Below the pieces are notes generated by a model. That model did no database searches and was not told the DNA's origin. It saw only the letters and a program-made list of their open reading frames with translations. From positions 18,731,936 through 18,795,935 of the forward strand of contig CAIIXF020000006.1 of assembly GCA_903813345.2 (NCBI GenBank): 64,000 nt of DNA. The letters are read 5' to 3'. Numbering within the stretch: position 1 is the stretch's first letter; each line of letters opens with the position of its first letter. A program made the translations under genes and the position numbers. Below are positions 1 through 64,000 of the stretch, one piece after another. This DNA comes from Owenia fusiformis (taxonomy: Eukaryota > Annelida > Polychaeta > Sabellida > Oweniidae).

Positions 1-849
1 TGAGCTGGCGTGCCAAGTTGAAGAGGTGAAAGACGTTGTGAAACAGAATGTGGTTAAGCTCGAGGACAGGGGAGCTTCAGTGGAAAACTTGACAGAGAAG
101 GGCGAGAACTTGAATAAACAGGTACCTGCCCTATATATTTCTTTACTGGTTCAGACTTACTGTTGATCGGATGGTTATTTCAAAAACGTAGAAAGGGAAA
201 GAGCTCCATGTAAGCGTATATATAAGGGTTTAAGAGTAGATGCTAGTCTAAATCTAGCTGAAAAGGTTATCTCTCGTTATTCTTAACCATGATTATGCCG
301 TTGATTTTGCTACCTTTCCAATAGTTTTTTGTGATTATGCTTTACCTAAAGATCCTCAGCTAAAGTGGGTTCCATCATCGGTTGTAATATAGCCAGGTGG
401 CGCAAATGTGATCTCATGAAATTCATCATAACGCCTAATTAACAGATAATAATCTCATAGCCATGTAAAACATAATGAAAATATTAATTTTTTTATTAAC
501 CATTCTTTTTCAGTCGGAAAGCTTCCACAAAACAACAAAGAATTTAAAGGAGGAGATAAGGCTACCCTGGTATAAAAAACTTTGGAGGTGGTGTCTCCCG
601 AACTGTTGTTGTTGCTTTCAAGTATGTTACAAATCTAAACTTTGTAACCCTTGTTGCGCACGCATGTGTTCATGTTGCATTGATGACGACACACGGAAAG
701 AACAATATGAACAATCCATGCAAAATGAAATGAAACCCTTGAAAAAAGGTCAACGAATAAAGAGGGGGATCGGAAAAGGTGTGGATGATATTAAAGAAGA
801 AGACATTGAACTGGCATTTAAGCAACACGCAGAGTCTGATAAAGTATGA
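1..849 (+). CDS. R-SNARE (synaptobrevin/VAMP-like) with cysteine-rich C-terminus, 3' part of gene
   Basis: Two exons: 2..121 (open at the window start) and 514..849, joined in phase 0; donor GTACCT at 122, acceptor after a TTCTTTTTCAG tract at 513. The first 40 residues plus about 16 of the second exon form a SNARE motif; LEDRGASVENL places an arginine where VAMPs have their zero-layer Arg, so an R-SNARE is likely. Known VAMPs then have a Trp-rich juxtamembrane stretch and one transmembrane helix. Here PWYKKLWRW is followed not by a helix but by 12 cysteines within 29 residues (592..678), then a 56-residue charged tail rich in Lys, Glu and Asp to the stop at 847..849. I infer membrane attachment by multiple S-acylation (as in SNAP-25, Ykt6 or cysteine-string protein) instead of tail-anchoring. 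The 5' exons lie outside the window. Family call fairly sure; the specific paralogue is unknown. Confidence 0.72.
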
Positions 850-1878
850 TCTATTACATACTACAATAGTTGACATAAATAATCAAATACAAGTATAAAC
901 AATTTAATCATAAAATCCTCCCATTGTTTATGAATATTTTTAAACGGGATAATCAGCAGATCATTTTGGAGGATATGTCTTGTATCTTTTAAGAATTCTC
1001 AAATGTAATTTTACTCAACCTTTTCAATACACGGATTGAGCAATGAAATATTGATAGCGAATATGACTGCTAGATGGATTACATGATTGTTTTGTATGCT
1101 TCTCAAAATATGGTCTTGGTGAATCCTTAACCCTTGAGCTGCTTTGCAATATATTCTCAAATAAAGAAATAAATGTGATGAATAAATAAATAAATACATA
1201 CGAAAATGACAATTAAACCAAAGCAATCGGCTCTTTAATTGTAACCCTACTGTCACCATCTTGCTTCATCAAGCCTCGGACCTATTCTCATGTGTGCATA
1301 TCGACATGGTGCGACCTGAACGAACTGCGATGGACGTATCGAAGACTGCTTATGAACGAAGTAGCTAATTATTTTAGACACATTTCCCGACCACAGCCAC
1401 AATTGCCCCATTTTACGACTTTTTATCGGACCTAAAATAGGTACGATCGATATTGTCGTCAGCTTGGCGGTCGGACGGCGTCTCTTTTCGGAAGTCATCT
1501 TGCATTCTGGTGGCCATTTCGGAAGTTCTTAGATAAATCTTGTCATCGCGATTACAGGAAAACCACTTGAACGATTTACTTCAAATTTTTACACATGTTA
1601 CATGATAAGACGTTCTAGAGCTGTGGAACTTATATGTGGCCATCTTAAAGTACGTCCTATCCGTTCGTACAAAGTTTAAGCCCGTTTTCGAGAATGTAGT
1701 GAGAACTAGTTTGGTGTGAGAGTAGAGTTAGAAAATGTTGATAAGCCTCTAAGTTCTGTAACACCTTCCCGGGCGTCAGAACATATCCATGAAATTCTTC
1801 AGAAGATCGTACGAAATTTAATCCACGCCAAGCTCGTTCTGGCTTGAGCAGTGTCGTCTGATGTACTTTTGATAATTA
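850..1878. other. 3' flank of the SNARE gene, no gene seen
   Basis: AT-rich sequence. No canonical AATAAA lies within 100 bases of the stop; the first clear AATAAA is at 1160..1165, followed by an AAATAAATAAATAAATAC run, so a roughly 330-base 3' UTR is possible. Short open frames here look like chance. Confidence 0.4.
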
Positions 1879-6866: not shown

Positions 6867-7499
6867 TACTCTAAGAGCGAGGAGGAAAATTCTTAATAAG
6901 TGGAGTATAGTTGGTTTGGCAGCATTTTCAGTTAGAGGGAAGTCTTGGATGAAAATTCTACCTAGGTGATAGCTTTACAGAGTGGTACATAATTCTTTTT
7001 TTTCAGGGGTTAGCCCCCCACCCCCCAAAAACACCCCTACCCCGGAAAATAATTTTTTCATCTTCAATAATTTTAGATATCTTGATGTTTTTAAGTTACA
7101 TACATAGACATTATATATATGAATCATTTGCAAAATAAATAATGCCAATCACTCCTACAGAATTTGAAAAATAGTAAAAAGTATGTACCCCAGGGGGCAA
7201 ATTCGTGACCCATTTTTTACTATTTAGAGCCTCACTTTTCAATCAGACACTGGAAGACATTGAACAATTTCATGTGAAGTGCCCAGTAGCAGGGCTATAA
7301 GCCCTGAAAGGTTCAAACTAATTGAATTAGTAGGAGCAGAGAAAAAAATTGTTGATTTTTTGAAAAATTTGACATTTTTGAGAGGGGTGATTTTGTGTAT
7401 GACTATAGCTGATGCCTATATTTCTCAGATCTATCCCTCTTTGATGATAAATATGGTTTTGAAGTATGGAACTAAGATGTAAAAAATAATTAAAATGGG

Positions 7500-8660
7500 T
7501 TTTAAGGAAGTTTCATGTTTTAAACAAGTTCAAAATTCCAAGAATTGTACAATATCAGGTCTGAATTTACAAATTTAAGGTAAGACCTTGGATGAGCCTT
7601 AGATTTTTTACATCTGTCCCCCTTTGGTGATATTTATGGCTTTGTTGTGTGGAACTAAGATGTACAAAATAATTTAGATGGTTTTTAAGAAGGTTTAAGG
7701 ATTTTAACAAGTTCAAATTTGAAGAATTGTACAATATCAGGTCTGAATTTACGAATTTCAGGAAAGACCTTTGGTGAGCCATATATTTTTCACATCTGTC
7801 CCTCTTTGATGATATTTATGGTTTTGTAGTGTGAAACTAATATGTAAGAAATAACCTAGATGGTGTTGAAGAAGGTTTAAGGAATTTAATGAGTCCAAAA
7901 TTTGAAGAATTGTATAATATCAGGTCTGAATTTACGAATTTAAGGTATGACCTTGGATGACCCTTATGTTTTTATATCTGTCCCTCTTTAATGATATTTA
8001 TGCTTTTAAAGTAACGAACTAAAATGTAAAATATAATTTAGATGAATTTTAAGAATGTTTAAAGATTTTAACAAGTTCAAAATTTGAAAAATTGTATAAT
8101 ATCCGGTCTGAATTTACGAATTTCAGGTAAGACCTTTGGTGAGCCATATATTGTTTACATCTGTCCCTCTTTGATGATATTTATGGTATTGTAGTGTGGA
8201 ACTAAGATGTAAAAAAACAATAAAGATGGATTTTAAGAAGGCTTAAGGATTTTCACATGTTCAAATTGGAAAAATTGTATAATATCCGGTCTGAATTTAC
8301 GAATTTCAGGTAAGACCTTTGGTGAGCCATATATTGTTTACATCTGTCCCTCTTTGATGATATGTATGGTATTGTAGTGTGGAACTAAGATGTAAAAAAA
8401 CAATAAAGATGGATGTTAAGAAGGTTTAAGGATTTTTACATGTTCAAAATTTGAAAAATTGTATACTATCCGGTCTGAATTTACGAATTTCAGGTAAGAC
8501 CTTTGGAGAGCCATATATTGTTTACATTTGTCCCTCTTTGAAGATATGTATGGTTTTGTAGTGTAGAACTAAGATGTAAAAAAACAATTAAGATGGATTT
8601 TAAGAAGGTTTAGTGATTTTCACATGTTCAAAATCTTGGCACATTGTACAATATTAATTC
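7500..8660 (+). repeat. Left-arm array of ~182-bp monomers
   Basis: Monomers start near 7541, 7733, 7906, 8088, 8271 and 8455, spaced 173-192 bases, plus a decayed copy near 8640. Each carries AATTGTAYAATATCMGGTCT followed by GAATTTACGAATTT and ATCTGTCCCTCTTTGATGAT. Copies diverge mainly by substitutions and small indels. Confidence 0.8.
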
Positions 8661-9087: not shown

Positions 9088-9333
9088 AACACATCATGAA
9101 TCTTTTTGGAGATATCGTATTTGAGATTGTAAGGAATAGATTGGTACATGAATTGTACACGTTGCTTGGTATTTTGTCACACCCATAGATCTGATTCTGC
9201 CTTTAAACTTAACACATCGTGAATCTTTTTGGAGAAATTGTGTTTGAGATTGTAAGGAATAGATTAGTACATGAACTGTACATGTTGCTTTTAATTTTGT
9301 CACACCCATAGATCTGATTCTGCCTTTAAACTT
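9088..9333. repeat. 123-bp direct duplication in the foldback core
   Basis: AACACATCATGAATCTTTTT at 9088 recurs as AACACATCGTGAATCTTTTT at 9211; both units end at GATTCTGCCTTTAAACTT. Two copies, about 90 percent alike by eye. Confidence 0.75.
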
Positions 9334-9339
9334 CCTTAA

Positions 9340-11490
9340 AACCCATTTAAATTATGTTTTACATCTAAGTTTCATACTACTAAACCATATATATCATCAT
9401 AGAGAGATACATACCTGAAATTCGTTATATTGTACAATTTGTCAAGTTTTGAACAGGTTTAAAACCCTAAACCTCCTTAAAACCCATCTAAATTATGTTT
9501 TACATCTTAGTTTCATACTACAAAACCATATTTGTTATCATAGAGAGATATATGTAAAAAACGAATAAGGGCCATTCACAGTTATACCTATAATTAATAA
9601 ATTCCAGACCTGTTATTATACAATTCTTCAATTTTTTATATTGTTTAAACCTTAAGCTTCTTTAAAACCTGTCTAAATTTTGTTTAACATCTTAGTTCAA
9701 CACTACTAAAGCATATATGTCATCAAAAAGGGATAGATGTAAAAAACATAAGGCTCACCTAAATACCCAATATTCATAAATGTCAGCTCTGATATTGTAC
9801 AATTCGTCAAAATTTGAACTTGTTTAAAACCTTAAACTTCTTTAAAACCTGTCTAAATTTTGTTTTACATCTTAGTTCAACACTACTAAAGCATATATGA
9901 CATCAAAAAGGGATAGATGTAAAAAACATAATACCTAAAATTCATTTATATCAGCTCTGATATTGTACAATTTGTAAAAATTTGAACTTATTTAAAACCT
10001 TAAACTTCTTTAAAACCCATCTTGATTCTTAGTTCAACACTACTAAATCATATATATCATCAAAAAGGGATAGATGTAAAAAATATAAGGGCCAAGCAAG
10101 GTTATACTTTAAATTCTTTAAATTCATTTAAAAATGTTAAAATTCATTTCAGATTTGATATTGTACAATAAGCCAAGATTTTGAACTTGTTTAAAATGTT
10201 AAGCTTCTTTAAAATCGATGTAAATTATGTTATACATATTTCCACACAACTAAACCAAATATATCATGAAAAGGGGATAGGTGTTAAAATCGTATGGACT
10301 AACCAACGTTATACTTGAAATTCATTCATTGCAGACCTGATATTGAACAATTCTTCAAATTAAAATCCTTAAACCTTCTTAAAATGCATCTAAATTATTT
10401 CTTACATCTTAGTCCCACACTACAAAACCATATATATCATCAAAGAGGGATAGGTGTAAAAAAATATAAGGCTCATCCAAGGTCTTACTTAAAATTTGCA
10501 AATTCAGACCTGATATTGTACAATTCTTCAAATTTGAACTTGTTATTAGAATCCTTAAACCTTCTAAAAATTCATCTAAACTATATTTTACATCTTAGTT
10601 CCATACCATAAAACTATAATTGTCATTAAAGAGGGACAGATGTAAAAAATAAAAGAGTCGTCCAAGGTCATACCTATAATTCGAAAATTCAGACCTGATA
10701 TTGTACAATTCTTCAAATTTTGGACTCATTGAAATCCCTAAACAGTCTTCAAAACCATCTAAACCATTTTTACATCTTAGTTCCACACTACAAAACAATA
10801 CATATCATCAAAGAGTGACAGATGTAAAAACATAAGAGCCATCCAAGGTCTTACCTGAAATTCGTAAATTCAGACCTGATATTGTACAATTCTTCAAATT
10901 TTGAACTAGTTAAAAATCCTTTAACCTTCTTAGAATTCATCTAGATTATATTTTACATCTTAGTTCCACACTATAAAACCATAAATACCATCAAAGAGGG
11001 AAAATTTAAAAGACATAAGGGTCATCCAAGGTCATACCTGAAATTCATAAATTCAGACCTGATATTGTACAATTCTTCAAATTTTCGACTCATTTAAAAT
11101 CCTTAAACTTTCTTCAAATCAATCTTAATTATTTTTTACTAATTAGTTTCACACTACAAAACCATACATATCATCCAAGAGGGACAAATGTAAAAAATAT
11201 AAGGCTCATCCAAGGTCTTACCTGAAATTCGTAAATTCAGACCTGATATTGTACAATTCTTCAAATTTTGAACTTGTTAAAATTCTTAAACCTTCTTAAA
11301 AACCATCTAAATTATTTTGTACATCTTAGTTCCATACTACAAAACCATAAATATCATCAAAGGGGGACAAATGTAAAAAATCTAAGGCTCATCCAAGGTC
11401 TTACCTAAAATTTGTATTTTCAGACCTGATATTGTACAATTCTTGGAATTTTGAACTTGTTTAAAACATGAAACTTCCTTAAAACCCATT
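9340..11490 (-). repeat. Right-arm array of ~182-bp monomers (inverted)
   Basis: The complement of the left-arm monomer, CAGACCTGATATTGTACAAT, recurs about every 180 bases from about 9430 to 11440, roughly 12 units. Units near the outer end are more alike and those near the core more decayed, as if the array grows or is homogenised from outside. Confidence 0.8.
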
Positions 11491-12370
11491 TTAATTATTT
11501 TTTACATCTTAGTTCCATACTTCTAAACCATATTTATCATCAAAGAGGGATAGATCTGGAAACCATAGGCATCAGCTATAGTCATACACAAAATCACCCC
11601 TCTCAAAAATGTCAAATTTTTCAAAAAATCAACAATTTTTTTCTCTGCTCCTACTGATTCAATTAGTTTGAACCTTTCAGGGCTTATAGCCCTGCTACTG
11701 GGCACTTCACATGGAATTTTTCAATGTCTTCCAGTGTCTGATTGAAAAGTGAGGCTCTAAATAGTAAGAAAGTGGGTCACGAATTTGCCCCCTGGGGTAC
11801 ATACTTTGTAGTATTTTCCAAATTCTGTAGGAGTGATTGGCATTATTTATTTTGCAAATGATTCATATATATAATGTCTATGTATGTAACTTACAAACAT
11901 CAAGATATCTAAAATTATTGAGAATGAAAAAATTATTTTCCGGGGGTGGGGTGTTTTTGGGGCGTGGGGGGCTAACCCCTGAAAAAAAAGAATTATGTAC
12001 CACTCTGTGAAGCTATCACCTAGGTAGAATTTTCATCCAAGACTTCCCTCTAACTGAAAATGCTGCCAAACCAACTATACTCCATTTATTAAGAATTGTC
12101 CTCCTCGCTCTTAGAGTACATCAGCTGATGCACGATTTAAATGTGATCGAAATTAGATAAGTTGTTTTTGGTTACTTTCACGATTGCACGGGATAGCATC
12201 TGTTTATTAGATATTTTAATATCGTCGTTTTTATGTTTCCCAGGTTATGTCATGCCATGTACATTATGTGCTTGTTGATTTCATGACAAAATTAATATCT
12301 AACCAGACGGTAAAAATAGTTTTATATATATGTCAGTTTTAATATGCTAAAGGACAATTCAGGATTCGTG

Positions 12371-13648: not shown

Positions 13649-13684
13649 TCAGGCTTGTTTCTCTGCCGTAGATAGGCTACAACC

Positions 13685-14666
13685 ATGGCTCGGAAAGAAC
13701 TATTCAGTATCTTCTGCATCTTGTTAATACCATGCATCATTCACTGTGAAAACGAAAAAACGGACTCGAATGCTATACAAAGCACAAAAACAGCGGAATC
13801 GAGGGTAGATGAATTAAAAGACACATTAGAAGATTTAAAAACTTTAGCAAAAGAAGAGGATAATGATATTATTTCGAGCGTTCAAGAGGACCCAGCAAAG
13901 AGGAACTGGAAGTCGGGACAGTTCTGGGGTAAACGTGGTGATGGTTGGAAATCTAATCAGTTCTGGGGCAAACGGGACGGGGATGATGAAGACAAAAGAG
14001 CTTGGAAATCTGGACAATTTTGGGGTAAAAGAGCGTGGAAGTCAGGACAGTTTTGGGGTAAACGTTCAGATGACGACGAGAAACGCGCTTGGAAATCTGG
14101 TCAATTTTGGGGGAAACGAGCCGGTGATGAGTTAGATAAGAGGAACTGGAAGAGTGGTCAGTTTTGGGGAAAACGTGACTGGAAATCAGGACAATTCTGG
14201 GGAAAGAGAGAAGATCCCGCCATCGAATATGAGGACAATCAAGACAAAAGAAATTGGAAATCCGGTCAATTTTGGGGAAAACGAGATATGGACGAAGACA
14301 AGCGTAAATGGAAAAGTGGACAATTTTGGGGAAAACGAAGCGTTGATAGTGAGAATACCAATGACGTGCAAGTAGATGATAGCATAGACAGTACTCATTC
14401 AATTGCGAAACGTTCCACCGATTGGAAAAGTGCTTCGTTATGGGGAAAACGAGATTGGAAGAGCGGCCAATTCTGGGGCAAAAGAGCATGGCAGAACCCG
14501 GGATCTTGGGGTAAAAGAGGGGATAGTTGGAAGGCGGGTAACTTCTGGGGAAAACGAGCTGACTCTTGGAAGAGCGGTAACTTCTGGGGCAAGAGGGATG
14601 CTGGCGAAGACGACGTCTTAGACACACTTATAACAGAGAGAGTTATGAAATACTTCAATAATGATA
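13685..14666 (+). CDS. W-X5-W-amide neuropeptide precursor (myoinhibitory peptide / allatostatin-B-like), main exon
   Basis: A prepropeptide of 327 residues up to a GTAAGT donor at 14667; without splicing the frame stops at 14698. The start is in ACCATGG context and opens with a hydrophobic signal peptide (about residues 1-21). An acidic spacer (22-71) is followed by 14 peptides between residues 74 and 304: nine copies of X-WKSGQFW-GKR (X = N, A, D or K) plus variants GDGWKSNQFW, STDWKSASLW, AWQNPGSW, GDSWKAGNFW and ADSWKSGNFW. Every unit has W-X5-W followed by GKR: Gly donates a C-terminal amide and Lys-Arg is the prohormone convertase site. Acidic spacers separate some units. The W-X5-8-W-amide pattern is that of myoinhibitory peptides, which in other protostomes modulate muscle, feeding and settlement through G-protein-coupled receptors. 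The family is inferred from the pattern. The codons of identical peptides differ between copies. Confidence 0.88.
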
Positions 14667-15520
14667 GTAAGTATGAATTAAGTTTACTTTGTGTGTGATT
14701 TCTATTTAAAAGTTCTCTTGTGTGAAAACCCATCAAGTCATGGATCAAATCAGTTAATTCGGATGAGAAGTCATATAAATAGCAAATCTCGGTTGGCTTC
14801 TTTCTTTAGTTCCGGATCCTGTCTTTTCCTTTAGTTTGCTTATACACAATTTGCTTGTATCTTGACTCCTTTTATCAATTAATTCAAGATACCTTGACGG
14901 CCGTTACCATATCTTCAAAATGGCTGACGAAAATTTTGAATTTGTTGATCTTATTTTCTTCAAATTGGGCTCTCAGCTTTATGTATTATAACGGATTTAG
15001 CAGGGATTTGCGTGTATGTACATACTTAATAACTAGCTAGATATAGGAATTATATATTCCTAAGAAAAAACAATCAGGGAATATAACGATTTTGATTAAA
15101 AGGATTCTAGGCCGTAACTTGAATTTTCACGCATGCGTGTTGGGAGCTTAGAACTGCAGAATACCGTTTAAAGTTCGAATAGTGAAATTTGTCTTTTTTA
15201 CCATTTGTTGTTATGTAGCCTGTGTCTGGGAAATAGATTTAGCCGTACATGTATTCGGAGAGGAAAATATACTTTTATTTTCAAAACTGATATCACTTAC
15301 TGTACTGTAATTGTTTTATTTTTTTTTAACATATTATTTATTTCCTTCAAAATCAAAAAATACACAAAATATCTACTACCAATCGCCATAGGCATTCTAG
15401 GTAGTTTAAATTACAATAGAGGAATAATTACATTAATCATAGATGGTTATTGGTAATGTGAGAGGTTGGGAGGGAGGGGGGGGGGGTTGTCACAAGATAC
15501 AAATGAGAATAACATTAATT
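14667..15520 (+). other. Intron of the neuropeptide gene, first part
   Basis: Begins with GTAAGT. AT-rich with a G homopolymer run near 15474..15486. Nothing coding recognised. Confidence 0.4.
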
Positions 15521-20604: not shown

Positions 20605-21587
20605 TATGGCTGGCCATCTAGACCAATGTATCGTCATACTTTTAACGCCGTAAAATCTACTTTTAACGCCGTGAAAAACGATTTTATACGCCGTAAAGAA
20701 TTACTTTTACGCCGTTAAAAACGATTTTTACGCCGTTAAAATTCATTTTGAACGGCGTCAAAAATAATTTTTAACGCCGTAAAAACGATTGTATACGCCG
20801 TAAAGAATTACTTTTTACGCCGTTAAAAACGATTTTGTACGCCGTCAAAACCGATTTTTACGCCGTTAAAAATTATTTTTTACGCCGTTAAAAATTATTT
20901 TTTACGCCGTTAAAAATTATTTTTTACGCCGTTAAAAATTACTTTTTACGCCGTTAAAAATTACTTTTTACGCCGTTAAAAATTACTTTTTACGCCGTTA
21001 AAAATTATTTTTTACGCCGTCAAAACTGATTATTTACGCCTTTCGAAATTGCGAACGTACAGAACATTGTTAATTATTTGCGAAAAAATGTTTAAACAAT
21101 GAAAACTCGATGTATATCAAATTCCCGAGATTTCCATACAACCAAATGCGTCTGGCAAATAAAAATTCCAATATAAATGATAAATGTGACATGTACAGTG
21201 ACAGAAAAATAGAGTTTTGGATTTATATCAATCAGTCTGTAAGTCGAACATACACGTTCGTTTGTTCAATGAATACCAGATTGTAACGCTGGTTTTAATT
21301 GGCTGCCAGCTATACTTTTTAACGGCGTACAAAATCGTTTTTAACGGCGTAAAAAGTAATTCTTTACGGCGTATAAAATCGTTTTTACGGCGTTAAAAAT
21401 TATTTTTTGACGCCGTTCAAAATGACTTTTTACGCGTACATAATTATTTTTGACGCCGTAAAAAATCAATTTTGACGGCGTACAAAATCGTTTTTAACGG
21501 CGTTAAAAGTAATTCTTTACGGCGTATAAAAATCGTTTTTACGGCGTTAAAAGTATGACGATACATTGGTCCAGATGGCCAGCCATA
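20605..21587. mobile_element. Foldback element built of ~21-bp ACGCCGT units
   Basis: Ends are inverted: TATGGCTGGCCATCT at 20605 and AGATGGCCAGCCATA ending 21587, with GATTAT directly repeated outside (20599..20604, 21588..21593). Next inward on both sides is ACCAATGTATCGTCATACTT. The left arm (20640..21050) is about 18 tandem units of the type TTTTTACGCCGTTAAAAATT; the right arm (21318..21555) is about nine units in inverse orientation (ACGGCGT), joined by ~260 bp of unique DNA. Many units are themselves part-palindromic. No coding capacity. Confidence 0.85.
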
Positions 21588-21593
21588 GATTAT

Positions 21594-22599
21594 CTTTAAT
21601 GCGCTTCCAAATATACCGATGGATTTGAAAATCCCATGGAAATTATTCCATCGCCAGAAGGGTCATCTGAAGGAAATTCGCCAATCATATGAACCGATTC
21701 ACGATCTGTATTTGATAAAAAATACAGTTGGATTGCAGAGATAGAACATATCCAATGGTCGTTGGGTTGATCGAATCCCGAATCTTTACTAATTGACGGA
21801 AGTAAAATAATTTCCCCCAGTCAAATATTTGTCCATTAGTCTGACATCAATCCGCCAGCCACAGTTTAAATACAGACGGAGGGGGCGCTGGAGAATTGAT
21901 GCAATTTTTTCCACTGAGCTTATCAAGACGGGAAAGTCTATCGCTTACGACAATATCAAACAACCAGAGGTACTCTTCAAATTGGAGACCTTGCCCGAAT
22001 GAGTCCAGAATAAGCATATTTTGTAATCAACAAAACTCAATTAGAGTCTATCTGAAGTTACAAATTGGCTTAAAGTATTCCAGTAGATTATAAGATTTGT
22101 TGACTTCACATATTGAGATCCCATATTATTTGACTTTTAATGTTAATGGCTCATCATTGCACGATTGAAGATCTGCAATCCAATGATATTTGAGACCTCG
22201 CCAGAAATTGAATATGACATGAATTATTATCAATAATAAAATTGTGATAATGAAATGATAATTTAACCCTTGATCTTTTCACTATTTGACCATTTTGTTA
22301 TTAGACGCTGGAGTCTATTGCTTTTGCCAGTTTTCTTATTCTTTCTTTCTCCCCTCGTTTTCTCAGCAACTAGAAGGACTTACTTAAACTATTTTACATG
22401 CTTAACTAGGGAAACTATCTGGGTTGTTGGGAAATAAGGTCAAATTTTAATCTAGGTCAAAGGTCAAGAACTAGGTCAAATCTTACATTTTCAACATTCT
22501 GTCATTTATCTTCGTCGTTATTTATCGTAAGTCTTAAATCTTTTTTTAAAAATGTACCTTAGAAAAAGCCAAATCAAGAGTGTGCATCCGTTTTTTGAT
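21594..22599. other. No gene seen (intronic)
   Basis: AT-rich, no repeat or coding signal beyond scattered AGGTCA-type words near 22438..22490, which belong to a low-complexity stretch. Confidence 0.35.
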
Positions 22600-25249: not shown

Positions 25250-26260
25250 GACCTAGATAGCGAAGGGAAAGTTTAGAGCATTTAGGGATATGAAAATAAT
25301 ACAATTGTCTTGTGTAATGATGATGAATATTAATGTTGATATCAAACAAGTCTTGAAATAGATTTTTTGGAAGACTGGGGTGCTTATTAAAGATTTTGTA
25401 CATGAACTGACCAGTACAATATCTGTTGACATCAAAAATATTTAATATTTTAAGATCTTTAAATAAGGGAGCGGAGTGAGAAAGTCTATCCTTATTTAAA
25501 GCTAGCCTTAAGAATTGTTTCTGCAGTTTATGTAGACGATCATAAAATGATTTAAATGTGTTACCCCAGATTATGTTGCAATAATTTAATTGAGAGTGTA
25601 TCAATGAGTAGTAAATTGTTTTGAAACTGTCTATTTGAAGTAGATGTTTAATGTGATAAAGAGAACCAATGACGCGAGAAATCTTTGTTTCAACAGATTT
25701 TATGTGCTCTTTAAATTTCAAGTTTTTATCAATAATAATTCCAAGAAAGTCAATTTTTCCCGGAAATTTATGTTCTCATTGCGTATTTTGAGATTCAGAT
25801 TTGTTTGATTTTTTGGGGTCCAAATAGAATAGCATTGGTTTTGCCAATATTAAGTGAAAGTTTGTTTGCTTTTATCCAGTCATCTATTGAATTCAAGTTT
25901 GCATTAGTTCTAGTCATAAGTTCATTTAAATCATAATCACTATCAAGAAGATTGTTGTCATCAGCAAACATAATAAATTTTAGATTAGGGGCAACAAAAG
26001 GCAGATCATTTATGTAAAGAATAAATAATAGTGGTCCAAGTACCGAGCCCTGTGGAACACCACAATTTAGAGATGATTGTTTAGATTCATAATTGTTAAT
26101 GGTGACATATTGTTTGCGGTCTTTTAAATAGCTTTTCAAACCAGGACTTAGCTATTCCTCTGATGCCATAATATTCAAGTTTTCGTATCAAAATGTCATG
26201 ATTAATTGTGTCAAAGGCCTTGGAAAAATCTAATGTTATGCCAATGCTCGTTTTCCCCAA
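25250..26260 (-). pseudogene. Reverse transcriptase ORF fragment, frameshifted
   Basis: Read on the minus strand. Box A (GITLDFSKAFDTINHDIL, catalytic Asp) lies at about 26180..26235. A +1 shift near 26135 leads into the frame at 25795..26139 with GVPQGSVLGPLLFILYINDL (box B) and FADD (box C, the usual catalytic pair, in place of YADD). At least one more shift near 25750 leads to the C-terminal region at 25250..25721 (FLGIIID, SLIHSQLNYC, WG, LQKQFLRL). The protein cannot be made as it stands. The order of motifs is that of jockey/CR1-group LINE ORF2. Confidence 0.8.
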
Positions 26261-39573: not shown

Positions 39574-40623
39574 GATCTATAGTTTGCCGTGAGGATTATC
39601 AAATAATGAGATTAAACTTAACACCAACCCTTCTGTATCAAACAGTTTATTTCAAATTTAACAAGTAATAAAACACTATTCGCAGGATAACCTTCATTTT
39701 ATCTTGTTTGCCAAACTCCTCTAATAACGATTTTCTAAAATGGGTGGGAGTGTTTGAAATAGGTCCGATTCGAAGTTCCAATAACGACATGAATAAAATA
39801 CAAAATCAGATATTAAACAATTGAGTCGCTCTTTACTTTATTGACCATGATTCATTTACACCGTATTAGCTTTCGTTGAAACTGTTAAGAACATCAGTTA
39901 TTTAATACCATTCATCAATTTCAAAATAAAATCGGTCGTTTTGGAATGAAATGATGCAAACGAACTTCAGAAAACAGTTGTAAGTTTAGGAAATTCCTAG
40001 CTTTAATCACCGGACTTTCTACAGATCACGTAAGTAAAGATTGATTTTAAAAATCCCAAAGTAACGCCAAGCATCCTTTTTTTAATTCTAATTGTGGCGA
40101 TCTATAGTTTGCCGTGAGGATTATCAAATAATGAGATTAAACTTAACACCAACCCTTCTGTATCAAACAGTTTATTTCAAATTTAACAAGTAATAAAACA
40201 CTATTCGCAGGATAACCTTCATTTTATCTTGTTTGCCAAACTCCTCTAATAACGATTTTCTAAAATGGGTGGGAGTGTTTGAAATAGGTCCGATTCGAAG
40301 TTCCAATAACGACATGAATAAAATACAAAATCAGATATTAAACAATTGAGTCGCTCTTTACTTTATTGACCATGATTCATTTACACCGTATTAGCTTTCG
40401 TTGAAACTGTTAAGAACATCAGTTATTTAATACCATTCATCAATTTCAAAATAAAATCGGTCGTTTTGGAATGAAATGATGCAAACGAACTTCAGAAAAC
40501 AGTTGTAAGTTTAGGAAATTCCTAGCTTTAATCACCGGACTTTCTACAGATCACGTAAGTAAAGATTGATTTTAAAAATCCCAAAGTAACGCCAAGCATC
40601 CTTTTTTTAATTCTAATTGTGGC
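39574..40623. repeat. Perfect-looking 525-bp tandem duplication
   Basis: GATCTATAGTTTGCCGTGAG at 39574 recurs at 40099; the copies 39574..40098 and 40099..40623 look identical wherever I compared them. AT-rich, non-coding. Either a very recent duplication or an assembly artefact. Confidence 0.85.
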
Positions 40624-44372: not shown

Positions 44373-47300
44373 TCAGATATGTAATTCTACAGAAAATGAT
44401 CAATTTGAGACATTTCTTGAAGCTGCTCGTTGGCCTGTGTTTTTGTCATGTTTGTCATGTTCTGGAGGTCGTATATCTCCGGTTTCCTTTAATAAGTATT
44501 GTTTCTGGCATAGTTCTGAGTCATTGTAAAGTGATATATGATTAATACATATGATATTATAATAAGTGAAATAACAGTGCTACAAGTGTTACAAATTAAG
44601 TATTGTTATTTGTTACCCCACCAATATTATATTAATACCCCCCCCCTCCCCCTCCACTGGCCAAGATCAGGGCAAGGCAAATGTAAATAGGCGAGCAAAA
44701 GGTCAGAGGGATATTTTGGACTCCATCTCTACAGTTTAACTTGAAAAAACGTCTAAAATCTGTTCATATATTTCCTTTAAAATTTTGGTGGGGCAATTGT
44801 TGCCTCGCCTGCATACCTCATACTCGTTTCCCAGTTTGATTTTCAACCACATGAACACATCATACCTTGGAAGTCCAAGATGGCATACTTGGCTACGTCC
44901 GTGACCTTACCTTTACCAATAATCTTGATTCAAAATCGTTGCTGATGACATTTTAGTCTGACTTTCTTCTTCGTTGTTCTCTTGGCATTTTGCATAGCTT
45001 ATATCTATTAAATAGAATGACTTTTTTCACCAACAAAAAGTGGAAATATATTGCTATCCCCGCTTTTGGGACCGTTGTTAGCCGTTCGGCGTTTAAAACA
45101 AATAAATACACTTTTGCAATTTCAATTTCAACCAGGTAGTAGTGACATTTTGCCGTGTTAAGTGCCCTGCTGTACGCTATATCGTGTGTAAGACATTTAG
45201 CATTGGAGGATAAACAAAGGATAAACAAAGGATAACAAAATCACATTCGAATTTAACAAACAATAATGCCTAACTGAGAATGTGCAAATAATAAAAAATT
45301 AAATACAAGCATCTGCTTTTACATGTACATATGCAATGGGTATATAAATATTATTCAAATGATTTACACGACAATTGATGAAGGCAAAATGTTTACAAAA
45401 TGCTTGAAGATAGAACTACAAAGACGACATCTTTCCTTCCAGGCTTAATAATAATTGCGGTTACATCTTTGGCCATTATGTTCAAATTACCTGACACAGA
45501 ACGTAAAATTAACATTAATCACGACTAAACGTCAAATTAAATTCTAACTTTTTAAACTTTAAGAACTTAATTATTTCCTCTAGTACTCTTGTACAGTTTG
45601 GAACTATGGGCCATTGTTTTGTTTATACCAAGGGGTTAAATTGTGCAATTATCGCTTCGCCATAACCCAACTATTAGAAAATGCCTCCAGAGAGGATGCG
45701 TTTAAATGATAAAAAGAACTTGAAAGTTTAATATTTGGGGTATATGCCCTGTGATGGGATCAACATTACCTTCCTCTTTTGTTATCCCACTGAACGTAGT
45801 ACGTGAGGGTAATAGAGAAGCCGTCCGTTGACGACGATGTGGTGATACCACTAAGTTGACGAAATATCATCCCACAGGTGAGACATGTAAGATGTGCATA
45901 AGAAATACGCCTTTCAACCCCAAGGCACCGAGGAAAGTCATACGCCTAATTACTACCATCATGAGAAATCGTGGCCTTCTATTAGCTTCTCTGTAGAATA
46001 TATTTCTCGTTGAAGGCAGAAAGATGTGATGGGTATCAGAATGGATTACTACTGTACTGTACTGTAAGAAAAAGACCTATTAAGCAAACGCAACAAAAAG
46101 ATAATGTCGTACTGGTTCCCGCATTAAAGCAATGTGGAGAAAATTTCTTCAAAAGGGTCGAAATCGGAAACAATAATAAAAACAATAAATATTTTTGTAT
46201 TGACTATTTAATTCTGATTTTTTATTGATGACTGTTCCTTTATTGAACAAAATTTGACGGGTGAACAAAAGCTACAATATAATATTACTAAACTTGGAAC
46301 GTCGTTTCTGCTTTACTCACAATGTTACATCATCATATTTGCATTCAAAATAGTTCATTTAGTGTCATCAAAATGCTTATAAATAAAATACTATTACATA
46401 CAATATTTCCCCTCGGTTGAACCTAGTTCTGGCACACTCAAAACATTTTGATAAGGCCTTTGGAACTTGACTCAATACCCATTCTTTAAATGACTCTTTC
46501 AATACGTACGCCATGCCTTATCTTTCTAAGATTTGATTGAAGTCGGGTTAAGTCATATTTCTATACCATTAGGTGTGTATATATATATCATTTTTATATT
46601 GTATTCATTCTTCGATAATTCCACGCAAAGTGATTTCAAAGTTTGAAAAGTTGAGCATATGAATTTTTTTCACTGGAGGGTCTGAAAACGTCTCTAAGCA
46701 AGCACATCAAGGATCATGGAGAAAATAAGACGTAGCATTACTGCCCGGGTAGAATGGAATTGCAATCAAATATTTGGAACAATGGAATTGTATCGACCCC
46801 ATTTTCCATCGATTAAACATAATCGGAACGGGATTTTAGAAAATGTTTACTCTATCAATATATTGTTTTCATAATTTCAATTGTTATGCCCACCTGACAA
46901 AATGTTTCCTACGAGAATTACATGTTCTTTTATTCTTACTAAGGATTTGAACATTCATAATTCCATTTATAATTGTTCAAACGTAATAGGTACAACCCTG
47001 TATTATTTCTGCTTTTGTCGTAATTATATAAAAGTGTTGTTGATGTTAAAGAGCGTTTCATTCATGCTACATGGAAACTAGATTATCACACCAAAATACC
47101 AAGTAAACGCAGGTTGGCCTATCCTTTGAAGTTATTCAGTTCTTGATTTCTCAAATCATTTTCAACTAATAGGAGCTCTGTATGGATCGTTGTATATCGT
47201 AAGTAAGACATAAATAGTATTATTCTCATAAAAAGTTTAGATTACATTTCACAAAATAAAGCGATATGAAGTGAACCTATTTTAGATCTTGATAAATTCC

Positions 47301-48945
47301 TATTATATTGGTGTTAATGTCAAAATATATATTAACTAAACAGATGAAAAGTGAGCTCAAAGAAAGTTGCCTTAATACGAAGTTAATTCAAATGCTGGAA
47401 AAATTAACTGATTGAATAGGCCAGAAAAATCATATGTTTGTCTGTGTCATAAAACACATCGTAAAAGATGTTAACTGACTAATGGCTTGGTCATGTTTTT
47501 GACATATGGTGGAAAAAACGTTTGGTTTTATGAGTTTAACATCCTTTTAGCCGTTGGTTATGTGTAAAACATCTATCACCGCACAGGTTAAATTCAATTA
47601 AACAGTAGCAACCATGTTCATCAAATAAAAATAACATTGAAATGATATAAAAAAGTAATAAAATTCAAAAATCAAAAACACTTCAAATTTAAGTCCAGGC
47701 TGACACCCAACATTTTTACGCTCTTTCCCTTAAAACGCTAATCAAAATGTCCTTCGTCAAAACCAATAATCCGTATTAAAACTATGCCAGTAGCATATCC
47801 TAAAATAAGAAGAGAAGACAAAAAGAAGTCATTGTAACAGGTCACGAGTGTTCAAACAAAAACTCGGGCAATCAATCAACATGCACTCGAATTCATCAGC
47901 AAGAAGAGAGAATGTACGTGTAGGTTCTTGGGTCTCGTGTTCCTACATTGGATTCACTTTTATCACATCTTTCTGTTGTACATCTCGCAACATGATCTGA
48001 TATAAGAAAACTTGGTTCGTGTTCTGATTGTATGAGTTACAACATATCAATCACAAGGTATATTTATCGCCCCCAATGTCCGTACGTTCATTATAGGTAT
48101 CATGTGTACTCTGATGTCAAACGCGCAGTGATTACTGCCCGTACTGAGTCTAGCTTACAGAGAAGGCTTTGGACCATCCTTCAAGAATCCCCACAAATGA
48201 ACAATTGTTGCATACTCTTCCGAGTGATGCTTATTCAAAGAGACGTCAAAATGATTTATATCAAAGAGGCACTATCACGACAATAATGCTCTATGACACC
48301 GGTTGACACAACCCTGGTGTCAAATACCAGTCGTGTCACATTTAATTCAGATATATGTTTTCTAAAACTATCAATTACATGTTTGAATTCTTTAATTTTT
48401 ATACACGAACAACGTCGATTCTATCGCTTTTTGATTATTTCCGCCTGTGTGCCTTTATTTTTAGCTCTATACAGGGAATATTGTGCCCATTATAATTGCA
48501 TTTATAGTTAGGGTGGGACTCGTGTATTTTCGGCTTCAAGGCAATCTATATCGCATTTAAGGAAATGTGTATTTTCAACGCTGAGACTGGTCGTCTGCAC
48601 GCAATTTGATTCACAGCTTCATTCCAAATCAGGAGGTTTAGTATTTTCATTCCTTTACGTGAAATGCAGTGGAATAAAATGACATTAGTAGAGAACAGTA
48701 GAAAAAGTTAAATTAACAATATGATTGTACTGAAATGAAAGAACAATATATACATATTTCGGATACTTAATAGAAGAGTTCAAATCTTTTACATTACCAA
48801 CGTGATCTAAATCAAGGTAGGTAATACGATATTTGGACGATTTGGATTTTGGAAAAACTAAAAATGTGAATAAAACAGATTGATCTAATAGTTTAGTCAT
48901 TTAAACGGCATACGTTTATTACCTTTTAATTTAATCAGGAAGCGT
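44373..48945. other. No gene seen
   Basis: AT-rich DNA with a C-rich run at about 44639..44654, a three-copy GGATAAACAAA run at about 45205..45235 and a TATATATATAT patch near 46577. Open frames such as 48032..48286 (+) and 44953..45228 (-) show no recognised similarity or splice support. Confidence 0.35.
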
Positions 48946-49143
48946 GAGATATAAAAGAGTAAAATAGTATATCTAATGGTAAGTCTCTCGAGTAGCGTTT
49001 GTGACATCATGATAAACCATGACATCTCATTTCTTCTCAGCCCTGAGATATAAAAGAGTAAAATAGTATATCTAATGGTAAGTCTCTCGAGTAGCGTTTG
49101 TGACATCATGATAAACCATGACATCTCATTTCTTCTCAGCCCT
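48946..49143. repeat. 99-bp tandem duplication, part of an inverted pair
   Basis: GAGATATAAAAGAGTAAAAT at 48946 repeats at 49045; each unit ends GACATCTCATTTCTTCTCAG then CCCTG. The second unit continues into TTTCAGGTGAAACAGAAAGA. This end is repeated inverted at 50236..50307. Confidence 0.8.
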
Positions 49144-61933: not shown

Positions 61934-64000
61934 ATTAATTGTAATTGTAATTGTAAAATTTATTATAGTGTCTTGGGTAAAATTATACATAAAATATCAA
62001 TTAAAACGAACCCCGGGCCGACATCGGCCTATAAGACACCTGTCTTATCTATATAGAACCCGCTCCCTGGTCCTGAGCATTTGGCCACAGGCCCTGGCAA
62101 CGTATAGGTAGATTCCAGGCTCACTCATAAGTATTTTAAATTGTTCTTCGTGATTTTCTGGAAATAATGTTAATTTAGATGTCACTTTATGCAACATATC
62201 ACGCCTTAACACATCATATTCACTACAGTCCATTATAACATGCTGTTCATCCTCTACGAGTGGGACCTCTTCATTGCAAATCACACAATGTCTATCTTGG
62301 ACAGCCAGGCGTTCATATCTGCCCGTTTCAATTCGGATTGGGGCGACTCCACAGCGTAAAGATGCAAATGCCCTTCTATCCAATAATGATAGACTAGATT
62401 TAAGATAGGGCTCGCAGTCGCACTTGTCTTTAAACGTTCTATAAGTTCTAAGTTTGTTCCGTTGGTTTGGATCACGGCGGTTGTCATTCCACAAATTGGC
62501 TCTCCATGCATTTAATCGAATGGTTTTCAGCGTGTGCAGGACAGATTCCAATGGAGAATCGAACCCCAAATCAAGATCAGCTGTCAAGATCCTGTTAAGG
62601 TTAAAAAACCAGTTCGCCTTAGCACGTGATACACCCACTGTTAAATTCCAATCGAAAATGCGTCTTGTTATTCGATCCGTGTTCAAAGAAAGACATCTGT
62701 CCCGGTATTTGACGGCAACCGTAATTTGGCGTACGTAGGGTGCAGTCCAACCCATCTCGGCAGATACTGCTGCATTAGGTGCGTATTTACCAAGTCCCAG
62801 GAAAACTCGACATGCACGGTGGAAAACTGCATTAATTGAGGAATGTTCTTTTAGGCCCCATACCTCAGAGCCGTATTCTAAAATAGGACGTACTAAACTA
62901 TTATACAACTGAGTATAGCATTCGTATGGTATGCCACCCATAGACTTGTACTTTGCTATTAGTAAACCTAGTGCCCTGCTACCTGCCGCTGCTACAGACT
63001 TGGCCATTTCGGAATAGTCCATGAACTCATTCAACCAAAGACCAAGGTATTTATACCGGTCAACAACAGTAATCTGGTGGGCCATATACCGAAAAACGGT
63101 ATTAGTTCTCGGAATACGCCTCGGTCGATAGTGCACAATGTTCGTTTTCTTAATATTTACGGAAAGACGCCATTTGTTACACCAAATGTTTAGTTCATCA
63201 AGCATACGTTGAATTCCATCTTCTGTACTAGATATTAACGCAACGTCGTCGGCATATAGAAGTATTGATATTTCCTCGCCGTTAACATTAACACCCTTGT
63301 GCAATGACTTAATGGTGTCGGATAAATCATTCACATATATATTGAACATAAGGCAAGATGTGAGGCACCCCTGTTTTAAACCATAGTTAATAGGAAAATA
63401 ATCCGTGAAAAATCCATTGATATTGATGCAGCTCTTCACTTCCCGATATAAAGCGCGAAGAGCACCCATATAGTCACCGTTGATGTTAACTCCAAGTTGG
63501 GCAAGTTTACACCATAAGAGCGTTCGATCGACCCTGTCGTAGGCCTTCTCCGCGTCAACGTAGCAAATAAACGTGCTTTGGCCCCCCTTGATACGATTTT
63601 CGACAATAGAAGACAAACTATATATGTGATCAATGCAACTTTTGCCGCTCATAAAACCATTTTGTTCGTCGTCTATTAAACCATGTTCGAGGCAGAACGA
63701 TGACAATCTGTCGTTTAAAATCCAGCAGTATAATTTGCACACAGCTGACGATAAAGTAATCCCTCGATATGTCAGCGGTTCATTCGGTATGGTGCTTGAG
63801 CCTTTTGAGATGGGTATTTTAACGCAATTATTCCACATTGATGGAGTAATCCTAGATTTGAAACAGTAGTTGAAGAACGACGTGAAAAATCTCTTAGACT
63901 GTACCGATAATAAAACCTCCATTGGTATACGATCCATTCCTGGTGCCTTTCCTCGTTTAGCAGCGTGTAATGCGTTTTCAACTTCCTGTTGTGAAATATC
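61934..64000 (-). mobile_element. Non-LTR retrotransposon, 3' part, continues past the window
   Basis: Minus-strand LINE: open reverse transcriptase frame from the window edge to 62045, a short 3' UTR of about 80 bases and a tail of AATTAC units (61936..61955). No frameshift or stop in about 1.95 kb, so it is young or recently active. The 5' part is outside the window. Confidence 0.85.
62045..64000 (-). CDS. Reverse transcriptase ORF of a LINE, open to the window end
   Basis: 651 residues are visible; the frame is already open at 64000, and a Met at 63937 is internal. Read from that Met, box A (YVDAEKAYDRVDR) is near residue 127, box B (GLKQGCLTSCLMFNIYVNDL) at 186-205 and the catalytic YADD at 228-231. 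The thumb region follows (RYKYLGLWLNEF, PILEYGSEVWG). Near the C-terminus is a C-X2-C-X11-H-X4-C motif (Cys551, Cys554, His566, Cys571). Just 5' of the Met the protein reads AAKRGKAPGMDRIP, the conserved GK-x-PG-x-D-x-I/V-P start of LINE reverse transcriptases. The endonuclease domain is expected beyond the window. It makes cDNA from its own RNA by target-primed reverse transcription. The clade is not certain. Confidence 0.88.
   Translation of the reverse strand, partial: DISQQEVENALHAAKRGKAPGMDRIPMEVLLSVQSKRFFTSFFNYCFKSRITPSMWNNCVKIPISKGSSTIPNEPLTYRGITLSSAVCKLYCWILNDRLSSFCLEHGLIDDEQNGFMSGKSCIDHIYSLSSIVENRIKGGQSTFICYVDAEKAYDRVDRTLLWCKLAQLGVNINGDYMGALRALYREVKSCININGFFTDYFPINYGLKQGCLTSCLMFNIYVNDLSDTIKSLHKGVNVNGEEISILLYADDVALISSTEDGIQRMLDELNIWCNKWRLSVNIKKTNIVHYRPRRIPRTNTVFRYMAHQITVVDRYKYLGLWLNEFMDYSEMAKSVAAAGSRALGLLIAKYKSMGGIPYECYTQLYNSLVRPILEYGSEVWGLKEHSSINAVFHRACRVFLGLGKYAPNAAVSAEMGWTAPYVRQITVAVKYRDRCLSLNTDRITRRIFDWNLTVGVSRAKANWFFNLNRILTADLDLGFDSPLESVLHTLKTIRLNAWRANLWNDNRRDPNQRNKLRTYRTFKDKCDCEPYLKSSLSLLDRRAFASLRCGVAPIRIETGRYERLAVQDRHCVICNEEVPLVEDEQHVIMDCSEYDVLRRDMLHKVTSKLTLFPENHEEQFKILMSEPGIYLYVARACGQMLRTRERVLYR

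Follow-up and report, generated by a model that had tools for sequence, protein, structure and literature searches.

The locus at the start of the DNA analysed here (a 64 kb stretch of the Owenia fusiformis genome, referred to as the window) raises the question of what takes the place of the membrane helix in an R-SNARE, and whether it could hold the protein on a membrane. It is disputed whether the transmembrane helix of a v-SNARE is active in fusion-pore opening or a mere anchor. A syb2-CSP fusion was reportedly made by Zhou et al. in 2013, under a title that is said to claim full support of release, and was reportedly tested again by Chang et al. and Dhara et al. in 2016. The debate has so far been argued with this engineered R-SNARE bearing the CSP Cys string, which supports release according to one group and gives little support according to others (PMC4972536, PMC5641348). 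In chromaffin cells, syb2-CSP is described as reaching 21% of wild-type secretion with slowed pores (PMC4972536, PMC5641348). If a natural R-SNARE shared this build, evolution would have set up the test itself, and the membrane and partners it uses would indicate where anchoring by lipid is enough for an R-SNARE.

Two exons of an R-SNARE gene

A plus-strand gene is already underway at the window start, with its upstream exons beyond the window. Exon A supplies 40 residues in a frame that is open from base 2; joined in phase 0 to exon B, it gives 151 C-terminal residues of an R-SNARE. The features read are the following:

2..121, plus strand: 3' part of exon A, R-SNARE layers −6 to +4, with the Arg of layer 0 as codon 23 (68..70)
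122..513, plus strand: putative phase-0 intron of 392 bases, donor CAG/GTACCT, pyrimidine-rich acceptor TTCTTTTTCAG
514..849, plus strand: exon B, 111 codons and the stop TGA
514..558, plus strand: start of exon B, end of the SNARE motif with layers +5 Ser, +6 Phe, +7 Thr and +8 Leu
559..591, plus strand: linker RLPWYKKLWRW, containing Trp and Lys/Arg
592..678, plus strand: Cys block CLPNCCCCFQVCYKSKLCNPCCARMCSCC, 12 Cys in 29 residues at the usual place of the transmembrane helix
679..849, plus strand: hydrophilic C-terminal tail of 56 residues (14 acidic, 12 basic) plus TGA
1160..1194, plus strand: five AATAAA hexamers, plausible polyadenylation signals by consensus match only, in AT-rich surroundings

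The AATAAA cluster lies approx. 310–345 bases past the stop at 849. As predicted from the genomic sequence, the two exons encode the C-terminal 151 residues of an R-SNARE of VAMP4/8/7 type.

The original prediction had taken the exon at 514 to be spliced to 2..121 and had pointed to the Pfam Synaptobrevin model (PF00957) as a check. Exon A alone already reached 28.8 bits with this model (cut-off 26.4), and the joined exons were assigned 45.5 bits over residues 5–56. Nine decoy joins, hand-picked among the best-scoring acceptors of the blastp and ungapped tests (9 out of 2387 alternatives), gave 28.6–38.6 bits, and the retained intron gave 28.9 bits. A chance continuation thus gains at most about 10 bits over exon A, compared to 17 bits for the real join.

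In the ungapped test, the 15 residues past the junction were scored against VAMP2, 4, 7 and 8. Acceptor 514 ranked first out of 2388 AG sites followed by 15 open codons, with a score of 79 versus 42 for the next site and a mean of −47 for the others. Its continuation was also first when 49570 open 15-codon stretches taken from the two strands were ranked. Gapped blastp gave a less clear picture. Acceptor 514 tied for first place with VAMP8 (40.4 bits), led by 0.8 bits with VAMP4, was fifth with VAMP7, had no reported match with VAMP2, and lay outside the top eight by summed score. Gapped blastp separates this acceptor poorly because exon A alignments and gaps dominate the scores. The ungapped and Pfam controls, both of which favour 514, were adopted once the gapped outcome was known.

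The donor at 122 scores 6.5 and is exceeded at 112 out of 3597 GT sites; the pyrimidine fraction of the acceptor at 514 is equalled or exceeded at 22 out of 1431 YAG sites, itself included. Behind 47 strong acceptor-like sites, no stop-ended open frame is longer than exon B, which has 111 codons compared to 76 for the next, in a count in which one frame runs off the sequence end. Matches to PDB entries lengthen across the junction, the best being VAMP4 (E 3.4e-5) followed by VAMP8 and VAMP7. When four VAMPs were compared with the whole window by tblastn, exon A was detected with E 3.5e-6 for VAMP4 and 0.008 for VAMP2. Taken on these sequence tests, the join of 2..121 to 514..849 is very likely correct.

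The residues at layers −6 to +8 of the joined protein are L V V V N L R V L G L S F T L, with Arg residue 23 at layer 0. At equal spacing, the corresponding layers of VAMP2 are T V V M N V R L L A L A F A L, and the Asn at layer −2 is common to both proteins. All 15 layers are acceptable, with hydrophobic heptad layers and Arg at 0; layer −7 and everything N-terminal to it fall outside the window. Together with the Pfam score, this fits the earlier claim of an intact R-SNARE helix with a zero-layer Arg.

A cysteine block at the place of the membrane helix

The count of 12 Cys in 29 residues at 592..678, on which the original prediction was built, is exact. The next densest 29-residue stretch in all six frames of the 64 kb window contains seven Cys. 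The leading Cys of the block at 592..678 lies 44 residues past the zero layer, compared to 39 for the start of the helix in VAMP2, and the linker in between retains the aromatic-basic character of VAMP linkers. The block is interrupted by Lys, Pro and Asn and is presumably less hydrophobic than the CSP string, a point against reading it as an acylated anchor.

It had further been claimed that the encoded protein has no transmembrane helix, and no transmembrane-like stretch was detected in the 151 residues. The highest 19-residue hydropathy was 0.74, compared to 3.0–3.8 for four human VAMPs. A simple Hessa energy sum for membrane insertion gave +11.2, compared to −3.0 to −8.3 for these four VAMPs. 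The number of 56 charged residues given earlier was wrong, as 56 is the length of the tail, and 26 of its residues are charged. The hydrophilic character of the C-terminus stands nonetheless, and it would be cytosolic if the Cys block is an acylated anchor. The protein ends in AESDKV, which contains no CAAX prenylation motif; the terminal DKV may be a weak class III PDZ-like pattern.

Exon B alone had no Pfam family match. Its best PDB match, BIN1 (E 0.78, located in the tail), was taken as chance. AlphaFold modelled exon B alone, as a single sequence, with a pLDDT of 49.

A downstream exon adding a transmembrane helix had been named as the finding that would speak against the helix-free reading, and it was sought behind acceptors between 850 and 13600. 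With strict limits, hydrophobic-helix terminal exons numbered zero on the plus strand and zero on the minus-strand control. Under relaxed limits, three plus-strand candidates were obtained compared to five on the control, so that nothing exceeded control level. Read-through of the stop would add seven residues before the next stop.

These tests support the SNARE motif, the joining of the two exons, the block of Cys and the lack of a transmembrane helix in the open frame, and the architecture is a real and unusual variant of an R-SNARE. A dense Cys cluster at the helix position would most simply be read as belonging to an acylated helix-free R-SNARE.

Lipid anchoring and competing readings

Compared to VAMP4, VAMP8 (endobrevin) and VAMP7, which gave the best PDB matches, the Owenia protein likewise has a SNARE motif with a layer-0 Arg and an aromatic-basic linker; where these proteins carry one hydrophobic helix and few further residues, it carries the Cys block and the 56-residue tail. 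Syntaxin 11 and SNAP25/23 are Q-SNAREs. They are described as SNAREs without a transmembrane helix that bear S-acylated Cys clusters (PMC4049605, PMC7247313). In syntaxin 11, the C-terminal Cys are reported to be S-acylated, and the protein needs them to bind membranes in NK cells (PMC4049605); SNAP25 is S-acylated at CGLCVCPC (PMC7247313). These clusters are smaller, with five predicted Cys in syntaxin 11 and four in CGLCVCPC, compared to 12 here. SNAP25 and CSP are also reported to contain the zDHHC17-binding motif [VIAP][VIT]XXQP (PMC7247313). This motif, which marks zDHHC17 substrates and not every acylated protein, had no match in the 151 residues, and its lack counts against the lipid-anchor reading.

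Among R-SNAREs, Ykt6 is similar in being lipid-anchored and lacking a transmembrane helix (PMC6464585). It differs by its CAAX end with one farnesylated and one palmitoylated Cys (PMC6464585), compared to 12 Cys and no CAAX here. Ykt6 also has an N-terminal longin domain, and tomosyn has N-terminal WD40 repeats. Tomosyn, too, combines an R-SNARE motif with the lack of a membrane anchor (PMC8377282). Both comparisons refer to the C-terminal part of the protein, as the N-terminal exons lie outside the window. In design the protein resembles syb2-CSP, in which a Cys string that can be acylated stands behind the R-SNARE motif where the helix would be. The syb2-CSP fusion is man-made, whereas the Owenia protein has a motif of VAMP4/8/7 type, its own Cys block and its own tail. 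Among the matches listed from the openly licensed SNARE literature, no title or abstract mentioned a natural Cys-string R-SNARE, which is weak evidence of novelty. The search covered Cys-rich, acylated or helix-free R-SNAREs, helix-free syntaxins, SNARE sets and SNARE evolution in molluscs, annelids and other Lophotrochozoa, lipid-anchored synaptobrevin and S-acylated SNAREs. Relatives were also sought by pattern among viral contigs (3 matching stretches) and genome contigs (73 matching stretches), none of which was confirmed; neither collection suits an animal gene, and this outcome has no bearing on conservation.

On balance, we favour a natural lipid-anchored R-SNARE of VAMP4/8/7 type in which S-acylated Cys would replace the transmembrane helix. 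Several S-acylated Cys beside the linker rich in Trp and Lys would keep the protein at a membrane from the cytosolic side, and tail-anchored insertion would not be needed. As its intact layers suggest, the R-SNARE helix would zipper with three Q-SNARE helices, and zippering would pull on a single leaflet through the bundle of acyl chains. The 56-residue hydrophilic C-terminus would remain cytosolic. De-acylation may free the protein from the membrane, as was proposed for Ykt6. What stood of the original prediction is the SNARE helix, the Cys block in place of the membrane helix and the hydrophilic C-terminus; acylation, reversibility and different membrane dynamics, as well as the membrane side and fusion activity, are what we infer from them.

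A more far-reaching version is put forward only tentatively and is rather doubtful. It describes a fusion-competent, reversibly membrane-bound v-SNARE, with a multi-acylated Cys string instead of the helix, that is conserved in some protostome lineage and would be a natural counterpart of syb2-CSP. If it is true, at least one physiological fusion step would do without a v-SNARE helix that spans the membrane. Engineered lipid-anchored syb2 supports exocytosis poorly (PMC4972536), so that an R-SNARE held by lipids is not necessarily an efficient fusogen; this counts against the favoured reading itself.

The main functional rival, which we regard as rather unlikely, is that of an inhibitory decoy. 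Such a protein would fill the R position without driving fusion, similar to tomosyn, and the Cys block would concentrate it at the membrane. It is consistent with the description of tomosyn complexes, formed by an R-SNARE motif without a membrane anchor, as not fusogenic (PMC8377282), and with the secretion of just 21% that lipid-anchored syb2 restored in chromaffin cells (PMC4972536). The same construct nevertheless lifted secretion above that of the double knock-out (PMC4972536), and the stretch from the SNARE helix to the Cys is only five residues longer here than in VAMP2 and would probably still transmit force. If the protein is expressed and fuses membranes, nature would have used the syb2-CSP design. 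Should it block fusion instead, it would be a decoy with an anchor, and tomosyn its counterpart without one.

An alternative isoform is conceivable because donor-like sites lie inside exon B, where nine have a positive score. Three of them are ahead of the Cys block (570, 588 and 591, best score 5.6), and another, located in the tail at 779, scores 9.2 compared to 6.5 for the donor used. The main transcript might skip the Cys block through another donor or another terminal exon with a transmembrane helix, and the form read here would be a minor one or a decaying gene copy, for which the little codon-position bias of exon B would also speak. We consider this distinctly unlikely, given that no transmembrane-like terminal exon was found above control between 850 and 13600 and that exon B is open over 111 codons with AATAAA signals downstream. 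The tblastn comparison of the four VAMPs with the whole window likewise gave only weak matches besides exon A. The best of these (E 0.015), a VAMP2-helix-like match at 44626–44549 on the minus strand, was rejected, as it lies on the wrong strand and contains a stop.

We regard it as very improbable that the protein is a soluble SNARE regulator whose Cys bind metal or form disulphides in a module of their own: CxxC-like spacing and paired CC would suit such a module, acylation of the Cys is itself a prediction and the low pLDDT of the exon B model decides neither way, but exon B lacks a Pfam family and a PDB relative, its run of four consecutive Cys close to Trp and Lys resembles acylated strings, and the reducing cytosol argues against disulphides.

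Neighbourhood of the gene in the window

Downstream of the lipid-anchored R-SNARE candidate, a neuropeptide precursor is encoded at 13676–14695 on the plus strand. It contains 14 W-X5-W-GKR units, nine of which are WKSGQFWGKR, and matched no Pfam family at E values up to 0.1. By resemblance only, it looks like a precursor of the myoinhibitory peptide/allatostatin-B type. In the literature on this family, the motif is given as W-X6-W-amide, compared to W-X5-W here. The family is described as being without direct deuterostome orthologues (PMC8557429), which would point to a protostome animal, as the lophotrochozoan focus of the original prediction does, but no further.

Remains of retrotransposons were found on the minus strand as two reverse transcriptase frames. 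One extends from 62048 to 64000 and is open to the window end (RVT_1, 109.5 bits), and the other is located at 25798–26151 (RVT_1, 45.9 bits).

Several repeats were also observed. Tandem arrays with units of mostly approx. 183 nt occupy 7422–8634 and 9277–11567 within a large inverted repeat, the arms of which (6867–7720 and 11264–12118) are approx. 96% complementary; the whole resembles a satellite-bearing mobile element. An array of 22-nt units with ACGCCGT at 20640–21596 is followed by units in opposite orientation. Two further long inverted repeats, 27409–28118/31538–32248 and 35271–35772/36904–37405, have arms with 96–98% complementarity and are, by appearance, terminal repeats of mobile elements. 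Finally, two direct duplications with 100% identity were detected, one of 99 nt in tandem at 48945–49142 and one of 300 nt with a spacing of 525 at 39574–40398.
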